64,000 bases of DNA, from contig NZ_JBBYXJ010000002.1 in NCBI RefSeq assembly GCF_039655775.1, positions 744,001-808,000 on the forward strand, read 5' to 3'. Shown here piece after piece: positions 7,503-20,511 of the stretch. The notes under the pieces were generated by a model that had not been told where the DNA came from, made no database searches, and was given only the letters and a program-made list of their open reading frames with translations. The position numbers were made by a program, and so were the translations under genes. Every line of letters begins with the position of its first letter. Positions within the stretch are counted from its first letter, which is position 1. The stretch comes from Iodidimonas sp. SYSU 1G8. GTDB taxonomy: Bacteria > Pseudomonadota > Alphaproteobacteria > SMXS01.

Positions 7503-9083
7503 ATGACCGATCAACCCATTCGCAGGGCGCTGCTCTCCGTTTCCGATAAGGCTGGCCTGATCGAGCTGGCCCGTTTCCTCGCCGATCGCGGTGTCGAGCT
7601 CCTGTCGACCGGCGGCTCGGCCAAGCTGATTGCCGACGAGGGCATCCCTGTCCGCGAGGTCGCGGACTATACGGGCTTCCCCGAAATGATGGACGGAAGG
7701 GTCAAGACGCTGCACCCCAAGGTGCATGGCGGCCTGCTCGGGCTGCGCGACAAGCACGCGGATGCCATGGCGCAGCACGAGATCGGCGCCATCGATCTGC
7801 TGGTGGTCAACCTCTACCCGTTCGAGGCCACCGTGGCGCGCGGCGCGGATTTCGAGACCTGCATCGAAAACATCGACATTGGCGGCCCTGCCATGATCCG
7901 CTCGGCCGCCAAGAACCATCACTTCGTCACCGTGGTGGTGTCGCCCGACGATTACCGCGCGGTGATGGATGACATGGCCGCGAACAATGGCGCCACCACC
8001 CTGGCCACGCGCCGTCGGCTCGCCGCCGTGGCCTATGGCCGTACCGCATCCTATGATTCCGCCATTTCCGGCTGGTTCGCGGGCCAGCTCGGCGACACCT
8101 TCCCCGAGCGTTTGACCATCGCAGGCACTCGGCGCCAGACCCTGCGCTATGGCGAGAACCCCCACCAGCAGGCGGCCTTCTATGTCTCGGGCGACGAGCG
8201 TCCGGGCGTCGCCACCGCGCGACAACTGCAGGGCAAGGAACTCAGCTACAACAACCTCAACGACACCGACGCCGCCTACGAGGCGGTCGCTGAATTCGAT
8301 CCCGCCGAGACGCCGGCCGTGGTCATCGTCAAGCATGCCAATCCCTGCGGCGTCGCCATCGCGCCGTCCATGGCCGAGGCCTATCGTCGGGCGCTGGCCT
8401 GCGATCCGGTCAGTGCGTTCGGCGGCATCATCGCGCTGAATCGCACCCTCGACGGCGAAACCGCCGCGGAGATCGCCAAGATCTTCACCGAGGTGATCAT
8501 CGCCCCGGACGCCACCGACGAGGCCCGCGAGATCATCGCGGGCAAGAAGAATCTGCGCCTTTTATTGGCAGGTGGCCTGCCCGATCCGGCGGCGCCCGGC
8601 ATGACGGTGAAATCCGTCGCGGGCGGTTATCTGCTGCAGAACCGGGACAATGGCCGCGTGTTCCGCGAGGGCTTGAAGGTCGTGACCAAGCGGGCGCCGA
8701 CCGAGCGGGAGCTGACCGACCTGTTGTTCGCCTTCCGTGTTTGCAAGCACGTCAAGTCGAACACCATCGTCTATGTGAAGGACGGCGCCACGGTTGGCGT
8801 CGGCGCCGGACAGATGAGCCGCGTGGATTCAGCCCGCATCGCCGCCCGCAAGGCGATCGACGCCGCCGAGGCCAACGGATACCCCGAGCCACTGACCAAG
8901 GGCTCGGTCGTCGCCTCCGACGCGTTCTTCCCCTTCGCCGACGGCCTGCTGGCCGCCGCCGACGCGGGCGCGACGGCGGTGATCCAGCCCGGTGGATCCA
9001 TGCGTGACCAGGAAGTGATCGACGCCGCCGACGCCGCCGGTCTGGCCATGGTGTTCACCGGCATGCGCCACTTCAGGCACTGA
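7503..9083 (+). CDS. purH: Bifunctional AICAR formyltransferase / IMP cyclohydrolase
   Basis: The 526-residue protein performs the last two steps of de novo IMP synthesis. The N-terminal cyclohydrolase domain ([42 protein letters not shown]) and C-terminal transformylase domain ([65 protein letters not shown]) are complete. The ATG at 7503 gives the standard N-terminus; a longer open frame upstream is a shadow of the preceding gene. The gene converges on the glutamate dehydrogenase gene with a single base between the stop codons and no terminator hairpin. Confidence 0.97.
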
Positions 9084-14073: not shown

Positions 14074-15792
14074 ATGCCTCCAGTACACGATCCGGCCATT
14101 CCATACCTGAATGAGCTGCTCACGTTTCTCGTGACGGCGCTCATCGTGGTGCCGGTCTCGCGCATGCTCAGGATCAGCCCGATTCTCGGCTTTCTCGGCG
14201 TGGGTGTCGTTGTCGGTCCGTCCGTTCTCGGGATCGCGACGGATGCCGACAACATCGAGGCGCTCGCGGAACTGGGCGTCGTCTTCCTGATGTTCACCAT
14301 CGGTCTCGAGCTTTCGCTCGATCGGCTGTGGAAGGCCCGGCGCTATGTCTTCGGGCTGGGTGCCCTGCAGCTCGCTGGCTGCGCGGCGGCCATCGGCGGA
14401 CTGGCCTATCTCTGGGGAAATCCGCCCGAGGCAAGCCTCCTGCTCGGTCTCAGCATGGCGCTTTCATCGACGGCGGTGGTCATGCAACTGCTCGTCGAAC
14501 GCGGGCAGATTTCGTCGCGACCCGGACGCGCGGCTTTCGCGATCCTGCTGTTTCAGGACCTGGCGGTGGTCCCCTTGCTGTTCCTCGTGGGCGTGCTGAG
14601 CGAACCGGGGGAAGGATCGAAACTCCTGTCCTTCGGCGTCGCGATGCTCAAGGCCGCCGGCTGCGTGCTGGTGATCTTGCTGCTGGGGCGGCTGCTCCTG
14701 AGGCCTCTGTTCCGCGCGGTGGCGGCATTGCGCAGCCCGGAAGTGTTTCTGGCGCTGACGCTGTTGGCCATTCTCGGCACCGCGCTGGCGACCGACGAGG
14801 CAGGCCTCTCCATGGCGCTGGGAGCGTTCCTCGCGGGGCTTCTGTTGTCGGAAAGTGAATTCCGGCACCAGATCGAAGCCGACATCCAGCCGTTCAAGGG
14901 CCTGCTGCTCGGGCTGTTCTTTATTTCCGTGGGGCTTCGGATCGACCTGTCTCTGGTGGTCGACCGCTGGCCCTTGGTGCTGGCCGCCGTGGCCGGTCTT
15001 TATATGATCAAGACCGCGATCATCGCGGGTTTGGCGCGCCTGTGGCGCTTTCCGCTCGGGCAATCGATGCGGATCGGTCTCTATCTGGGGCAGGGCGGAG
15101 AATTCGCCTTCGTCGTCGTGGCGGCGGCGGTTTCCGGAGGCATCATGGCGACCGAGCCTGCCCAGTTCATGCTGGTCGTGACGGGTTTGACCATGGTCCT
15201 CACGCCCTTCGCCAGCCTGTTGGGCGATGCGCTTGGCCGGCGCAGCCTTGGCCGGGCGCCGGTGGGCGGCCTTCCCGAGGAGTTTGGCGACCTGGACGAT
15301 CATGTCGTCATCGCCGGGTTCGGGCGCGTCGGGCGCACCGTTGGTCGGATGCTGACCATGCAGAAAGTCCCTTACGTGGCGCTGGACCTTGATGCCGAAA
15401 GCCTGGCGCCGCTCTATCGGGCGGGCGCCCCCGTATTCTTCGGCGATGCGAGGCGTGTGGACATACTGGACAAGGTCCGGGTCGAACAGGCGTCGTCGCT
15501 TGTCATCACGCTGGATGATCCGGCGGCGGTGCGGCAGTGCCTTGCCGCCGCTCATGAGCGCTGGCCGCATCTGACAATCTTTGTTCGGGCCCGCGATATG
15601 GACGATGCGCGTGAGTTGATGAAAAGTCGTTCGTGCACGGCGGTTCCGGAGATGATGGAATCGAGCCTGCAACTCGCGGCTGAAGTGCTGCGCGGGCGCG
15701 GATTGCCCGATGATGCGATCCTCCCGCTGGTCGACTCGTTCCGCCAGCAGATCTACACCGGCATCAAGCCGTCCGCCGAGGAGAGGGAATAG
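14074..15792 (+). CDS. CPA2-type monovalent cation:proton antiporter with C-terminal RCK domain (KefB/KefC-like)
   Basis: The 572-residue protein has about 12 membrane helices in its first 380 residues (LLTFLVTALIVVPVSRML, ILGFLGVGVVVGPSVLG, VVFLMFTIGLELSLDRLW, FQDLAVVPLLFLVGVL, LGAFLAGLLLSESEF, LYLGQGGEFAFVVVAAAVS) and then a Rossmann RCK/TrkA-N domain opening with DHVVIAGFGRVGRTVGRML, the nucleotide-binding GxGxxG. It should exchange K+ or Na+ for protons in the inner membrane, gated by a nucleotide or thiol signal. Its 3' end overlaps the convergent AsnB-like gene by 40 bases. No KefF/KefG-type ancillary subunit is adjacent. Confidence 0.9.
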   Translation: MPPVHDPAIPYLNELLTFLVTALIVVPVSRMLRISPILGFLGVGVVVGPSVLGIATDADNIEALAELGVVFLMFTIGLELSLDRLWKARRYVFGLGALQLAGCAAAIGGLAYLWGNPPEASLLLGLSMALSSTAVVMQLLVERGQISSRPGRAAFAILLFQDLAVVPLLFLVGVLSEPGEGSKLLSFGVAMLKAAGCVLVILLLGRLLLRPLFRAVAALRSPEVFLALTLLAILGTALATDEAGLSMALGAFLAGLLLSESEFRHQIEADIQPFKGLLLGLFFISVGLRIDLSLVVDRWPLVLAAVAGLYMIKTAIIAGLARLWRFPLGQSMRIGLYLGQGGEFAFVVVAAAVSGGIMATEPAQFMLVVTGLTMVLTPFASLLGDALGRRSLGRAPVGGLPEEFGDLDDHVVIAGFGRVGRTVGRMLTMQKVPYVALDLDAESLAPLYRAGAPVFFGDARRVDILDKVRVEQASSLVITLDDPAAVRQCLAAAHERWPHLTIFVRARDMDDARELMKSRSCTAVPEMMESSLQLAAEVLRGRGLPDDAILPLVDSFRQQIYTGIKPSAEERE

Positions 15793-17594
15793 GCAATCGG
15801 CGCCGGCGGTGGATTGAGCGGCAGCCCCGCGGGGTCGCTGGAAGCATGTCGCTCCATCAGCAGGGCGAGATGCAGCGCCCGGACGAAAAAAGTGGGCAGG
15901 GTGGGGCCAGCACGGTATCGCCCCCAGTAACGGCGTTTCAGCCCGTCATGCAGCGCGTCGGGCACCAGATTTCGGTTCAATGCCGCCCTGGCAAGGAAAT
16001 CGGTCGCACGGCTCAGGCGACTGCGGCGGGCTGGCGGGCGAAGGGCGGCGTCCAGGAGGGCGTCCAGCTCCGTCGGAGCCATGATCCCGGGAATGCCATC
16101 GCGCAGGGCGCGGATCGTCGCGCGAAGCTCTTCCGACTGCAGGAGTATGGCCTTGTGAAGGTCGGGTTGCGACTGCCGGAACGACGCCCGTCTTGCGCGG
16201 AAGAGGGCAGGCAACCGGCGCATGGCAAGGGATTCGAAGCAACGCTTTTCGACCCGCATTCCGCTGGGAATATGGCGCGCCATGTCCAGCACGCCCAGAT
16301 CCAGGAACGGGGAGGCGAACGGCAGGAGGGGTGCCACGGCCAGATGGCGCATCTGCACCATGTTGGCGATCAGGAAGGTATCGAGAAACAGGCTGTCCTT
16401 GATGTCGTCGAGATTTGAGGACTTCGGCGCGGCGCTCAGAATTTCGCCGTAGACCAACCGCAGCGCGGCGCGCAACGTGGCGGCTGTCTCGTTCGTCAGG
16501 GCCGGCACTATCGCGCCGAGCAGGGCCGGATCCTTGAGTGCCGCCGAGCCCAGAAGATCCTCGTTGGTATCAAGGCGGTATGCGGACTGGCCGAATGCCT
16601 CGTCGCCGAAGCAGAACATGGATGTGGGATCACGTTCGCGCGCATGGGCCGCGGCGCGCGCGAAGGCATCCACTTCGAAGCAGCCCTTGCGCATGAACAG
16701 ACCGTCGCGGACATGACTGCCGATCATGCCCGTGACGCTGAAATCATCGATCCTGTAGACCCGATGCGGCACGCCGAGTAGTGCCGCCTGGCGCCGCGCC
16801 GCATCGGGATCGCTGCCGCGCCGCGGCTCGCCCATGCTGAACGAGAAGGTGCTGGTCTGGACGCCCGCCCCGTGAAGGATACCGAGGATGGCCGTCGAAT
16901 CGTAACCGCCCGAGAGCGCGAGCAAAGGGTGCCGGCCTGCCACATGGGACAGCACGGCCCCGGTGATCCGCGACCAGAGCTCGTGTTCCATCTCCTTTTT
17001 GTCCCGCCATACATCGTCGCCGGGGCGGTAGCGCCAGTAAGCCGTGGCCGAAAGACGGTTCGGTCCGATGCGCACCAGGCTGGCGGGGGGCAGGCTGCGC
17101 AGGCCGCTGAACAGGGTGCGTCCGCGCAGCATGCAGCCATTGACCAGGAAGCTGGCGATCATCGCCGGGTCGATACCGGCTGCGAAACCGGCCGCCATTC
17201 CGGCGTCGTCCGTGATCAGGTCGCAGCGCTCGGTCCGAATGTGATAGAGCCGCGATATGCCGAGATGATCCGTCCAGCAGGACAGGACGCCGGTCTTGTC
17301 CAGCCAAAGATAGCTGCGGTGCTGGACCGCGATCGAACGCAGGCCTTCCGGCGCGCGGGCCATGTCGATGAGATGGTGCGGTACCGCGACGTCGGGCGCG
17401 CCCCCGGTGCCGTCGACGGTTGCCAGCAACGGCTCGCCTGGCTTGGGCGGCTGGTTCCACCAGCCGAACATCAACGCGCCGTCGGCGAGCATCATATGTT
17501 CGACACCGACCGGCGCGCAGGCCGACATGATGCGCCGCGCCGCCGGAGCGGCGTCCTCGGCGTAAACGATCGCCAGGAATGTGGGTGTCGCCAC
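15753..17594 (-). CDS. Asparagine-synthetase-like amidoligase without N-terminal glutaminase Cys
   Basis: The 613-residue protein has an N-terminal Ntn-hydrolase-like half (about residues 1-180) that begins MATPTF instead of MC, so it lacks the glutaminase nucleophile. The ATP-pyrophosphatase half follows, with LALSGGYDSTAILG (PP-loop at residues 228-233) and later conserved acidic and basic segments (FCFGDEAFGQ, APLLPFASPFLDLGVLDMA). Such proteins adenylate a carboxylate and form an amide with ammonia, an amine or a peptide. The start is GTG at 17594. It lies 98 bases downstream of the RimK-like ligase on the same strand. Lasso-peptide cyclases share this architecture, but no B-protein or precursor is seen nearby. 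Substrate unknown. Confidence 0.75.
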   Translation of the reverse strand: MATPTFLAIVYAEDAAPAARRIMSACAPVGVEHMMLADGALMFGWWNQPPKPGEPLLATVDGTGGAPDVAVPHHLIDMARAPEGLRSIAVQHRSYLWLDKTGVLSCWTDHLGISRLYHIRTERCDLITDDAGMAAGFAAGIDPAMIASFLVNGCMLRGRTLFSGLRSLPPASLVRIGPNRLSATAYWRYRPGDDVWRDKKEMEHELWSRITGAVLSHVAGRHPLLALSGGYDSTAILGILHGAGVQTSTFSFSMGEPRRGSDPDAARRQAALLGVPHRVYRIDDFSVTGMIGSHVRDGLFMRKGCFEVDAFARAAAHARERDPTSMFCFGDEAFGQSAYRLDTNEDLLGSAALKDPALLGAIVPALTNETAATLRAALRLVYGEILSAAPKSSNLDDIKDSLFLDTFLIANMVQMRHLAVAPLLPFASPFLDLGVLDMARHIPSGMRVEKRCFESLAMRRLPALFRARRASFRQSQPDLHKAILLQSEELRATIRALRDGIPGIMAPTELDALLDAALRPPARRSRLSRATDFLARAALNRNLVPDALHDGLKRRYWGRYRAGPTLPTFFVRALHLALLMERHASSDPAGLPLNPPPAPIAYSLSSADGLMPV

Positions 17595-17692
17595 CGTCTG
17601 AGCCCCCGTAGCACGCCGTGATGATCGCGCTACGGGTCATACTAGAATGCCTTTGGAGCCAATGGAATGGCAGGTTCGACCGTGATGCCGGT

Positions 17693-19153
17693 TCAGCGGG
17701 CTTCGATCCGGCGCACGAAGTCGTTCAGCAGCAGACGATAGAGGTCGTCCTTGAGAACCCCATCCTCGACGCCTCTGTCGATATTGGGGTTGTCGTTGAT
17801 CTCGATGACGAACACGCCGTCCTCTCGCTGTTTCAGATCGACTCCGTAAAGGCCGTCGCCGACAAGGTTGGCGGCGCGCACGCCGGCCTCCACCACGGCG
17901 CGGGGCGCATCCTCGACCGCCACGGACTTGAAGGCGCCCTCGGCGAAGCCGCCGCCGGGCTTGTGGTTGATGATCTGCCAGTGCTTGCGCGACATGAAGT
18001 ATTGCGACACGAAAATGGGTTTGCGGTTCAACACGCCGACACGCCAGTCATACTCGGTGTACATGAACTCCTGCGCCAGGATCACGGCGGAATGGCGGAA
18101 CAGGCGCTTCGAGTGCTCAAGCAAATCCGACCGGTTATCGACCTTCACGACGCCGCGCGAGAACGAGCCGTCCGGAATCTTCAGCACCAGCGGGTAGGAC
18201 AGGGCCGCTTCCGCGTTCAGCACGTTCTGCCGGCCGATGATGACGGTTCTTGGCGCGGCCACCTTGTTGGTCTGCAGCAGTTCGGCCAGGTAAACCTTGT
18301 TGGTGCAGCGCAGGATCGACACCGGATCGTCGATCACCGGAATGCCCTCGAACACCGCCTTCTGGGCAAACCGGAACGTGTGGTTCTCGAGCGTGGTGGT
18401 TTCGCGGATGAACAGGGCGTCGTATTCCGCCAGACGCAGATAGTCCTTGCGCTCAAGGGTCTCGACGTCGATGCCCATCTGGGCGCCGATGGCGATCAGC
18501 TTTTTGATCGTCTCGGGCGACGAGGGCGGCAGTTTCGCGTTCTGGTCATAAAGCACGCCCAAGGCAAATCGCGCGGTGGGGCGGGCTTTCGGCGCGCGCC
18601 AGTCGGCGCGGGTATAGTGCTCCAGGCGAGTTAGGAAGAAGTCGAACTCGTCCGGGTTGAGAGCACGCGGCGCGATGGCCTCCAGCGTTTTCACGCTCCA
18701 GCGTTCGTCGAACTCCACATGCACCCGCAGCAACGGGCAGCGGAACCGGTCGAATAACTGCCGGGCGAAGGTTCGGAAGCGCGCGCCCGCTGGCTGGCCG
18801 AAATAGACGGTCAGTGTAAAAGCCGCCTGGGGAGGATTGGCCAGCTTGGCGATTTCGTCGCGCAGCGTATGATTGAGGTCAGGCAGCTCGACGCTGTAGA
18901 GCGCCTTGCGCGACAGATTCAGGATGGTCTCGACCGTCGGCACCACCTTCTGGCCACGTGCCTCGGCCAGCAGGGAGCAGTAATATCCCAGGTCCAGATA
19001 TTCCAGATCGCCGCTGAGGTTGATCACGCGCGCGCTCTTGCTCGAAAGCCCGTCCGGCGTTTCCACATATTGCTGCAGGGTGACGGCCTTGCCTGCCTTG
19101 CGCGCCCATTCGCAGTCGGCGGTGGAGTCGACGATAATGATATGTCGTGTCAT
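17693..19153 (-). CDS. RimK-like ATP-grasp ligase with N-terminal RLAN-type domain
   Basis: The protein of 486 residues, taking the ATG at 19153 (AAAGG upstream), starts MTRHIIIVDSTADCEWARK, typical of the RLAN domain that precedes a RimK ATP-grasp domain. The ATP-grasp portion occupies the C-terminal 250 residues: PLVLKIPDGSFSRGVVKV, ILAQEFMYTEYDWRVGVLNR, and FVIEINDNPNIDRGVEDG with the Mg2+-binding Glu/Asn pair. RimK family enzymes add glutamate or other amino acids to a carboxylate of a protein or small molecule. The gene sits between a GNAT gene upstream and an AsnB-like gene downstream, all on the minus strand, suggesting one pathway. The acceptor is not identifiable. Confidence 0.85.
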   Translation of the reverse strand: MTRHIIIVDSTADCEWARKAGKAVTLQQYVETPDGLSSKSARVINLSGDLEYLDLGYYCSLLAEARGQKVVPTVETILNLSRKALYSVELPDLNHTLRDEIAKLANPPQAAFTLTVYFGQPAGARFRTFARQLFDRFRCPLLRVHVEFDERWSVKTLEAIAPRALNPDEFDFFLTRLEHYTRADWRAPKARPTARFALGVLYDQNAKLPPSSPETIKKLIAIGAQMGIDVETLERKDYLRLAEYDALFIRETTTLENHTFRFAQKAVFEGIPVIDDPVSILRCTNKVYLAELLQTNKVAAPRTVIIGRQNVLNAEAALSYPLVLKIPDGSFSRGVVKVDNRSDLLEHSKRLFRHSAVILAQEFMYTEYDWRVGVLNRKPIFVSQYFMSRKHWQIINHKPGGGFAEGAFKSVAVEDAPRAVVEAGVRAANLVGDGLYGVDLKQREDGVFVIEINDNPNIDRGVEDGVLKDDLYRLLLNDFVRRIEAR

Positions 19154-19249
19154 GACGCCTTTAAGGAGACGCTGAGGTAAGGTCGTTGGTCGCCGAGCCG
19201 GGCGGATGATGCGCGCGGCCATGGTCTCAGTAAAGATAGCGTTTGTGGT

Positions 19250-19717
19250 CTAATCCGGTACGGTGGCGAGGAATTTTTCCAGTACCAGGGCAGCGGCGCC
19301 GTCATCGTAGAAATCCGGCTTGCGCCCGGCCCGCGCATACCCGGTCGCGAGATAGCGCCGGATCGCCGCGTCATTGTCTTCCCGGACTTCGAGAGTCATG
19401 CGCCGGCGCCCGGTCGCGGCCGCGAGCCGTTCGGCTTGGGCGAGCAGGCCCGTGCCGATCCCCCTGCCTCGGCGGTCCGGATCGACCGCGAGGGAGTACA
19501 GCCTTGCGGCCTTGCTGTTCCGGCGAAGCAACACGATGGCATCGCCAGCCAGGCCGGCATCGTCCTCGGCGACGAGGCAGAGGGCGGTATCGCGTCCCAC
19601 GAGACGCCGCATGGCGCGCCGCGACAGACGGTCTCCCGGAAACGCCGCCAGTTCCAGCCGCTGCATGGCCTCGACATCGTCCTGCTGCGCTGGCCGAATC
19701 CTGATCGTTGACGCCAT
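19250..19717 (-). CDS. GNAT family N-acetyltransferase associated with RimK-like ligase
   Basis: The 155-residue protein, taking the ATG at 19717 preceded by a GGGGAAA sequence, is a single GNAT domain: IRIRPAQQDDVEAMQRLELAAF split across residues 4-25, the LYSLAVDPDRRGRGIGTGLL acetyl-CoA loop, and LEVREDNDAAIRRYLATGY at the C-terminal half. The DRLSRRAMRRL segment resembles the GNAT-C39-peptidase family that neighbours RimK-like genes in other bacteria, from memory of that family. Here the protein ends right after the GNAT domain, and no C39-like peptidase follows. An upstream ATG at 19735 is an alternative start. The RimK-like gene begins about 100 bases downstream. Confidence 0.8.
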   Translation of the reverse strand: MASTIRIRPAQQDDVEAMQRLELAAFPGDRLSRRAMRRLVGRDTALCLVAEDDAGLAGDAIVLLRRNSKAARLYSLAVDPDRRGRGIGTGLLAQAERLAAATGRRRMTLEVREDNDAAIRRYLATGYARAGRKPDFYDDGAAALVLEKFLATVPD

Positions 19718-19818
19718 TGCGGCTGGTTTCCCCATACGATGATGATCGGGACGCCGGGGACGGTTGTGCGGCCCGCCGTCTGAGCCGATAGTCTGAGCAT
19801 GCAATGAAAGGGACTACA

Positions 19819-20511
19819 ATGGTTGCCGCTGTTCCTCAGTCAGCCCAGGCGTTCAGCGCCGACGCACGCAAATACGATGCTCTTCGCCGCGGCCTGGTGC
19901 CCTGCTTTGAGTCCTTCTATGGAGAGATCGGGCTGCTCATGGCCGACTGGGGCGGCCCCGAGGCGCCGCGCGTGCTGGACCTGGGGGCCGGGACGGGTCT
20001 GGCGGCGTCCTTCGTCCTCGCCACCCGGCCTCGGGCGCGTCTGACTCTCATGGACGGCTCGGACGCCATGCTCGATGTCGCACGGGGGCGTTTTTCGCTG
20101 GTTCCTGACGTCCATTATGTTCTCGCCGATTTCTCTTCGGCGGATCTGGGCGGTGACTGGGACCTGATCGTCTCAGGTCTGGCTATCCATCACCTTGAGC
20201 ACGAGGACAAGCAGGCGCTGTTCGCCCGCATCGCGGCGGCGCTGGCGCCGGGCGGCCTGTTCATCAACGCAGAGCAGATTCTCGGGCCCACCGCGGCGCT
20301 GGAGGCCCGCAACGAACGGATCTGGACGGCGCAGGCGGCGGCGTTGGGTGTGCCGGACGCGGAGATCTACAATGCGCGCCAGCGCATGCTGCACGACCGC
20401 TGCGCCCCGGTGGAGGACCAGCTGAACTGGATGCGCGTGGCGGGGCTCGCGGACGTGGACTGCAGCTTCAAATCGCACCGCTTCGCCGTGATGAGCGGGC
20501 GGCGGCCCTGA
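19819..20511 (+). CDS. Class I SAM-dependent methyltransferase
   Basis: The protein of about 230 residues has the class I SAM fold: motif I VLDLGAGTGLAASFVL, motif II acidic residue in LTLMDGSDAMLDVARG, and post-motif FDLIVSGLAIHHLEHEDK-like sequence (here WDLIVSGLAIHHLEHED), matching the Methyltransf_25/12 type. The ATG at 19819 is chosen because AAAGGGA lies seven bases upstream; an ATG at 19804 would add five residues. It is divergent from the GNAT gene and could serve the same pathway, but there is no overlap or shared operon to prove it. Substrate unknown; small-molecule O- or N-methylation is most likely. Confidence 0.8.
   Translation: MVAAVPQSAQAFSADARKYDALRRGLVPCFESFYGEIGLLMADWGGPEAPRVLDLGAGTGLAASFVLATRPRARLTLMDGSDAMLDVARGRFSLVPDVHYVLADFSSADLGGDWDLIVSGLAIHHLEHEDKQALFARIAAALAPGGLFINAEQILGPTAALEARNERIWTAQAAALGVPDAEIYNARQRMLHDRCAPVEDQLNWMRVAGLADVDCSFKSHRFAVMSGRRP

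Follow-up and report, generated by a model that had tools for sequence, protein, structure and literature searches.

Do three adjoining genes, for an acetyltransferase, an amino-acid ligase and a relative of asparagine synthetase, work as one amide-forming pathway, or does the third simply live beside the other two? The question is posed by a stretch of 64,000 nucleotides from Iodidimonas sp. SYSU 1G8, which we call the window (G000:C2:744001-808000; the genome, G000, has two contigs and 3.9 Mb). A first interpretation from the letters alone, here the sequence-only reading, had proposed that the three products could together build an acylated, aminoacylated and amidated small molecule or tag a protein. 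This three-gene amide pathway is now one of several open readings. The one we favour, and to which we give about an even chance, is a conserved GNAT/RLAN-RimK amidoligase unit with lineage-specific and possibly independent, glutaminase-free AsnB-like ligases next door. The three genes are as follows (aa, amino acids):

19250 to 19717, minus strand: GNAT acetyltransferase, 155 aa (Pfam Acetyltransf_1, E 7e-16)
17693 to 19153, minus strand, readable from 19222: RLAN-RimK ATP-grasp carboxylate-amine ligase, 486 aa (Pfam RLAN and RimK)
15753 to 17594, minus strand: AsnB-like ATP-pyrophosphatase protein without the glutaminase cysteine, 613 aa, GTG start (Asn_synthase match)

Pfam searches and alignment confirmed this set of genes and the missing cysteine as the sequence-only reading had described them. 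The ligase matched RLAN with 145.5 bits (E 1.2e-42, cut-off 25) and RimK with 24.9 bits (E 1.8e-5, cut-off 21), and the match of the AsnB-like protein to Asn_synthase was weak (37.5 bits, E 2.9e-9, residues 210-519). The GC content at third codon positions (GC3) of the three open reading frames (ORFs) was 0.75-0.82. The likely starts are the ATG at 19717 for GNAT, where it had already been placed, the GTG at 17594 for the AsnB-like gene and the ATG at 19153, not 19222, for RLAN-RimK; the latter is preferred because most outgroup matches begin only around residue 21-25 of the longer reading. The resulting spacers measure 96 bases (GNAT/RLAN) and 98 bases (RLAN/AsnB-like), and thus co-transcription appears plausible from the layout. 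Our same-genus set comprised 7 genomes, the window's own and G001 to G006. The order GNAT, RLAN, AsnB-like was found again in 5 of the 6 others, so the arrangement is not a product of chance. No RNA family reached its gathering threshold in the 12,001 bases scanned around the locus.

GNAT and RLAN-RimK are an old, conserved pair that is usual in the class sampled. RLAN is present in 32 of 289 genomes of the window's class, three of the 32 being in the window's genus. For comparison we used loci of 3.6 to 19.5 kb from 27 of the 29 outgroup genomes with RLAN (G170 and G272 were left out). All frames were searched with profiles made in this analysis and partly from the same loci, five of which supplied seeds for the GNAT profile and four for the C39 profile. 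The outgroup counts are not fully independent because some genomes share a genus (e.g. G042/G267 and G143/G243). GNAT adjoins RLAN or is fused to it in 26 of the 27 loci, and in the remaining locus the contig breaks off at RLAN. A GNAT orthologue also adjoins RLAN in all 7 genomes of the window's genus, so the pairing named in the sequence-only reading holds well beyond the window. Iyer and colleagues are said to have described an RLAN-RimK / GNAT(-C39) amidoligase pair in 2009, which we take to be the work meant in the sequence-only reading. The window's genus and the 26 outgroup loci resemble that pair in having the same two domains side by side. Of the 27 outgroup loci, 16 also have the C39-like DUF3335 domain next to RLAN. 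The window's genus differs from the described pair: DUF3335 was searched for and found in none of its 7 genomes, the window GNAT likewise has no DUF3335/C39-like domain, and AsnB-like genes follow RLAN. An excerpt of PMC10318531 states that fusion to GNAT domains is frequent among DUF3335 members. In one outgroup locus (L137:6552-8531) GNAT and RLAN-RimK are fused in a single frame of 659 aa, which adjoins a separate GNAT-C39 frame.

Within the genus the RLAN proteins of the window and the 6 other genomes share 88-90% identity. Across 34 frames we counted 70 near-invariant positions, including E451, N453, D454, N455 and P456, and among them are END.P-type residues at the ATP-grasp end. The window GNAT carries an RRGRGIG motif. 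A plasmid search returned 11 RLAN records. A Pseudomonas aeruginosa plasmid record has no GNAT annotated within 5 kb of RLAN, and on a Legionella adelaidensis plasmid (L168:41-3232) the genes after RLAN-RimK encode a glutamate-cysteine ligase family protein and an N-formylglutamate amidohydrolase, a set that is another amidoligase-like grouping. The pair is thus usual in the class sampled but not universal. The P. aeruginosa rlo operon, which we set aside as a counterpart, encodes an ATP-grasp protein according to excerpts of PMC12239564, in which neither RLAN nor GNAT is named. A search of open-licence papers found no study of the GNAT/RLAN-RimK pair or of its product.

The third gene has a different history. 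It belongs to a narrow subfamily, found in one genus and one other genome. An AsnB-like gene adjoins RLAN in 6 of the 7 genus genomes, on the side opposite GNAT; the window has a single copy, G001, G003, G004 and G006 have two in tandem and G005 has three. No member of the subfamily lies beside RLAN in any of the 27 outgroup loci. The outgroup has only one AsnB near RLAN (L128), an asparagine synthase that has the cysteine and exceeds the TIGR01536 cut-off; methyltransferase-like and glycosyltransferase frames separate it from GNAT-RLAN. Searching for the trio elsewhere, as had been suggested, thus recovered it within the genus only, and there not in every species. G002 has GNAT, RLAN and the neighbouring KefC antiporter gene and shows no AsnB-like member, its best match, at 42 bits, scoring no higher than canonical AsnB; the end of its RLAN and the end of its KefC match adjoin at 7857 and 7872 (L072). 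In the RLAN tree, which rests on one conserved protein, G002 is nested in a supported group (99/96) whose other four members all have AsnB-like genes, and loss in G002 is therefore the simpler reading.

The genus has two more copies, G000:C2:1207471 and G003:C37, which stand at a distance from RLAN. The copy in the window's genome (L071:7143-12116) stands beside a cytochrome P450, a 77-aa ORF and a small ORF judged EthD-like by eye, and a class-I glutamine amidotransferase gene is nearby. Genes of M48-peptidase and RNase E/G type lie near the G003 copy, which is at the end of its contig. In the stretches compared, the two neighbourhoods share no gene besides the AsnB-like one at E 1e-5. Two other proteins of the genus are recorded here for completeness. 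G001 has an RLAN-side AsnB-like copy of 511 aa (L069:9771-11306), in which about 90 residues of the N-terminal domain are absent in frame; its close relative in G004 has 600 aa. The window's genome also encodes a second kind of cysteine-less AsnB-like protein outside the subfamily (L081:7078-8808, G000:C1 near 1187380; 576 aa, 28 bits to TIGR01536), which lies beside a ZnuD-like TonB receptor.

We then compared the subfamily with larger collections, scoring at most three candidates per genome in the profile searches and considering matches up to E 1e-14. Among 385 class genomes the family profile exceeded 600 bits only in the window's own genome, G001, G003, G005 and G191; the scores drop from 611 to 79 bits with nothing between. 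Among 398 phylum genomes it exceeded 600 bits only in the window's own, the next best match having 71 bits. A scan with two peptide patterns, over one genome per species and 84,980 species, gave 281 pattern matches and five loci, which appear to be those of G001, G003 (two contigs), G004 and G006; these patterns miss the G191 copy. Viral contigs gave 67 pattern matches and no relative, and plasmids no AsnB-like match. G191, from another family of the class, is the only genome outside the genus with a copy, and the tree places this copy inside the subfamily (96/95). It lies in a polysaccharide cluster (L166:4496-15659) with a flippase-type Polysacc_synt_3 gene, three family-2 glycosyltransferases and a sulfotransferase-like gene. 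A beta-helix match there is weak, with E 0.00057, and falls short of the curated cut-off. The RLAN model that matched 32 of the 289 class genomes had no match in G191, nor in any control genome. A copy without an RLAN match indicates that the subfamily is not tied to RLAN and either predates the RLAN neighbourhood or is the more mobile of the two.

The AsnB-like protein starts MATPTFLAIVYAED (MATPTF) and has no cysteine where canonical AsnB rows begin MCG. In three members (L071, L067:9897 and G191) a cysteine does occur among the first 12 residues of the frame taken; those of L071 and L067:9897 do not align to the canonical position, and the G191 copy is outside that alignment and its start is unsure. 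The structural model has a predicted local distance difference test score (pLDDT) of 84.8 and a predicted template modelling score (pTM) of 0.85, and its N-terminal domain is folded. The closest solved fold is the hydroxyamidotransferase TsnB9 (7ylz; Foldseek E 4.7e-17, Z 24.4, root mean square deviation 3.9, 483 residues aligned), followed by AsnB, carbapenam and beta-lactam synthetases with Z 17-19. The modelled likeness to TsnB9 extends over nearly the full length; the two differ in that they share 16% identity and that no amidooxygenase is among the window neighbours scanned. An excerpt of PMC13418202 describes ATP-dependent activation of a free carboxyl group by SaHAT, a homologue of TsnB9. 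In the model the protein also resembles beta-lactam and carbapenam synthetases in its AsnB fold (Z about 17); it differs from them in identity (9-16%) and in the canonical lysine region, which is not kept relative to AsnB rows. Beta-lactam synthetase and carbapenam synthetase both work without a glutaminase. Of the features of such glutaminase-free AsnB-type ligases we thus found the two-domain fold and the SGGxDS loop but not the canonical lysine motif. Glutamine-hydrolysing asparagine synthase does not describe the protein, which scores 39.3 bits against a TIGR01536 cut-off of 267 and lacks the N-terminal catalytic cysteine.

The subfamily has a kept ATP-binding loop and an altered active site. 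The loop SGGxD is present in 13 of 13 aligned members and in G191 (SGGYDST in the window), and the aspartate of DE is kept in 12 of the 13. In place of the canonical SG[DQ]G[GAS]DE motif stands a shorter FG-DE; the loss of the residue after SG is weak evidence for a dead enzyme because canonical rows have D or Q there. Active-site positions were mapped by sequence and profile alignment against AsnB rows, not by coordinates and not against beta-lactam synthetase or TsnB9; one row (L014), which is not part of the canonical profile, was out of frame and left out of the comparison. The roles of the residues are those established in work on E. coli AsnB and beta-lactam synthetase.

In order to compare rates of change we computed the ratio of nonsynonymous to synonymous substitution rates (dN/dS). 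Among G001, G003, G004 and G005 it is 0.20-0.32 for the AsnB-like genes, except for one near-identical pair with 0.65 (dN 0.008, dS 0.012). Within the genus we obtained 0 to 0.11 for RLAN, 0.18-0.38 for KefC and 0.14-0.37 for GDH. AsnB-like members, paralogues included, are 35-47% identical to the window copy compared to about 90% for RLAN. The AsnB-like genes are therefore constrained between near species and diverge much faster than RLAN.

The remaining features around the three genes are:

17638 to 17645, minus strand: CTAGTATG, -10-like element in the RLAN to AsnB-like spacer, a tentative promoter of the AsnB-like gene's own (from the spacer alignment)
14074 to 15792, plus strand: KefC-type antiporter (Na_H_Exchanger and TrkA_N), convergent neighbour, outside the claimed function
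19804 to 20511, plus strand: S-adenosylmethionine (SAM) methyltransferase, divergent (Methyltransf_25, 2.5e-16)

Between RLAN and the AsnB-like gene, 5 of 6 genomes have the -10-like TAGTATG (TACTATG in G005), though G001 and G004 are near-identical in their spacers, and TAGTATG or TAGAATG occurs in 3 of 5 spacers between AsnB-like genes. In the window TAGTATG has 1 match where 0.32 are expected, and at least one match was seen in 28 of 100 shuffles. A sigma-70 consensus scan of 15500-20000 reported two sites, both on the plus strand and neither in this spacer. These elements hint weakly at separate promoters of the AsnB-like genes. As to the precursor peptide that the sequence-only reading had proposed to look for, the spacers contain no conserved ORF of at least 50 aa; shorter ORFs could remain. 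A ribosomally synthesised and post-translationally modified peptide (RiPP), such as a lasso peptide, was considered and rejected on this ground and on the family scores, which are far below the cut-offs of the lasso peptide / macrolactam cyclase families (29.7 bits for NF033535, cut-off 525; 31.5 bits for NF033561, cut-off 300).

KefC is near full length in 5 of the 7 genus loci, a short remnant in G004 and not matched in G003 (L070:10175-10285; L066:8745-8874), where GDH and an AsnB-like gene are direct neighbours. KefC is thus not needed for the neighbourhood, and we rejected it as a partner. At 15753-15792 of the window the convergent AsnB-like and KefC genes overlap by 40 bases, and overlaps of 29 bases occur in L067, L068 and L069. 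The divergent methyltransferase had been suggested as a further step of the pathway. A tblastn search matched it in only 1 of the 7 genus loci, the window itself, and as a conserved fourth step it was dropped; it is probably unrelated to the locus.

How, then, could the conserved pair and its AsnB-like neighbours work? In the explanation we favour, RLAN-RimK would use an acyl-phosphate to join a carboxylate with an amino acid, perhaps a glutamate-like one in view of the enzyme's similarity to RimK/LysX/MptN, and GNAT would acylate this same small product or target at its amine. The AsnB-like protein probably still binds ATP and activates a carboxylate as an adenylate, which would then be joined to an amine not coming from its own glutaminase site, by analogy with AsnB relatives of the beta-lactam synthetase type. 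The lack of the glutaminase cysteine argues against glutamine as the nitrogen donor. The AsnB-like proteins would not be an obligatory partner of the pair and may have a substrate of their own, and G002 would be the one species that lost their genes.

Several observations weigh against this explanation. The adjacency of AsnB-like genes and RLAN lasts across a deep divergence within the genus (the window GDH is about 67% identical to those of G001, G003 and G004), and it persists where KefC is lost (G003) or reduced (G004); such lasting adjacency could point to a functional link. Sequence and profile alignments with AsnB rows put RRA opposite the RPK region; the canonical RxK lysine is thus not kept, and adenylation itself may be impaired. 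The dN/dS of AsnB-like genes against the window and G006 copies is 0.44-0.60, with dS of 1.0-1.4 near saturation and perhaps between paralogues. Furthermore, G191 is a draft genome with 90% completeness and 5% contamination.

The best surviving alternative, which we consider doubtful but worth serious attention, is a true three-step pathway like that of N-acetylglutaminylglutamine amide (NAGGN): GNAT would acylate an amino acid, RLAN-RimK would add a second one, and the AsnB-like protein would cap the new carboxylate with an amine, the tandem copies giving product variants. The NAGGN synthetase Ngg is an ATP-grasp enzyme. According to an excerpt of PMC8070244, the pathway consists of Ngg, which carries out the acetylation and forms the peptide bond, and AsnO, so that a characterised precedent combines acetylation, ATP-dependent peptide bond formation and an AsnB-type protein in one cluster. 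A set of this make-up is therefore not unusual in itself, although the sequence-only reading had called its AsnB-like third member unusual; NAGGN aside, the AsnB-like gene was found to accompany RLAN only within the window's genus. The common strand, the short spacers and the order kept in 6 of the 7 genus genomes fit such a pathway, as does the finding that none of these genomes has a NAGGN synthetase above the curated cut-off (TIGR03103, 569 bits; likewise 0 of 14 control genomes). Matches below the cut-off occur in all 7 genus and all 14 control genomes, reaching 171.5 bits in the genus with the stronger ones at positions 237-543 of TIGR03103. NAGGN itself was rejected as the identity of the locus by both family tests: the window GNAT has 22 bits against the fused GNAT/ATP-grasp family TIGR03103, and the AsnB-like protein, which lacks the glutaminase cysteine, has 32 bits against the AsnO family TIGR03104 (cut-off 570). 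The systems also differ in that GNAT and ligase are separate proteins here and that the ATP-grasp is of RLAN-RimK type. Against a single pathway, the AsnB-like gene was not found in any of the 27 outgroup loci, it occurs without an RLAN match in G191 and away from RLAN in two genus copies, and G002 keeps GNAT-RLAN without it. There is no glutaminase cysteine to supply ammonia, and the -10-like element, which was not among the sites of the consensus scan, is a weak hint of separate transcription.

Unlikely, and a step below the three-step pathway, is that the AsnB-like proteins modify a cell-envelope polysaccharide, e.g. by an amide on a uronic acid, independently of GNAT-RLAN. The only copy outside the genus lies in a polysaccharide cluster, and because of this context we raised our estimate for this explanation slightly. 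It rests on that one locus, however, and the annotated neighbours of the window, L071 and L073 copies include no polysaccharide genes (some neighbours are unannotated, and L073 is at a contig end). The window's genome has one XrtA/PEP-CTERM-type AsnB above its cut-off, but this type is a different, cysteine-bearing branch.

Marginally less likely again is a pathway specific to the genus, in which RLAN-RimK and GNAT would build an acylated small peptide and the tandem, fast-evolving, glutaminase-free AsnB-like ligases, with their remodelled synthetase site, would cap it with an amine other than ammonia to give new capped peptides. The weakest alternative, which we regard as improbable, is that the AsnB-like proteins are catalytically dead and kept for binding or regulation, as the missing cysteine, the shortened FG-DE, the replaced lysine and the low identity between members would allow, but the SGGxD loop in every aligned member, the nearly invariant DE aspartate and the selective constraint between near species speak against it.

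The pair is known in kind, and a link between it and its AsnB-like neighbour would be a local one, which the gene arrangement makes possible. GNAT/RLAN-RimK pairs are common in the class sampled, and the synthetase site of the AsnB-like subfamily is unusual. The genus amounts to a natural experiment, with one species without AsnB-like genes against others with one to three copies at the locus, and a comparison of products across the genus could separate the product of the pair from the AsnB-like step.

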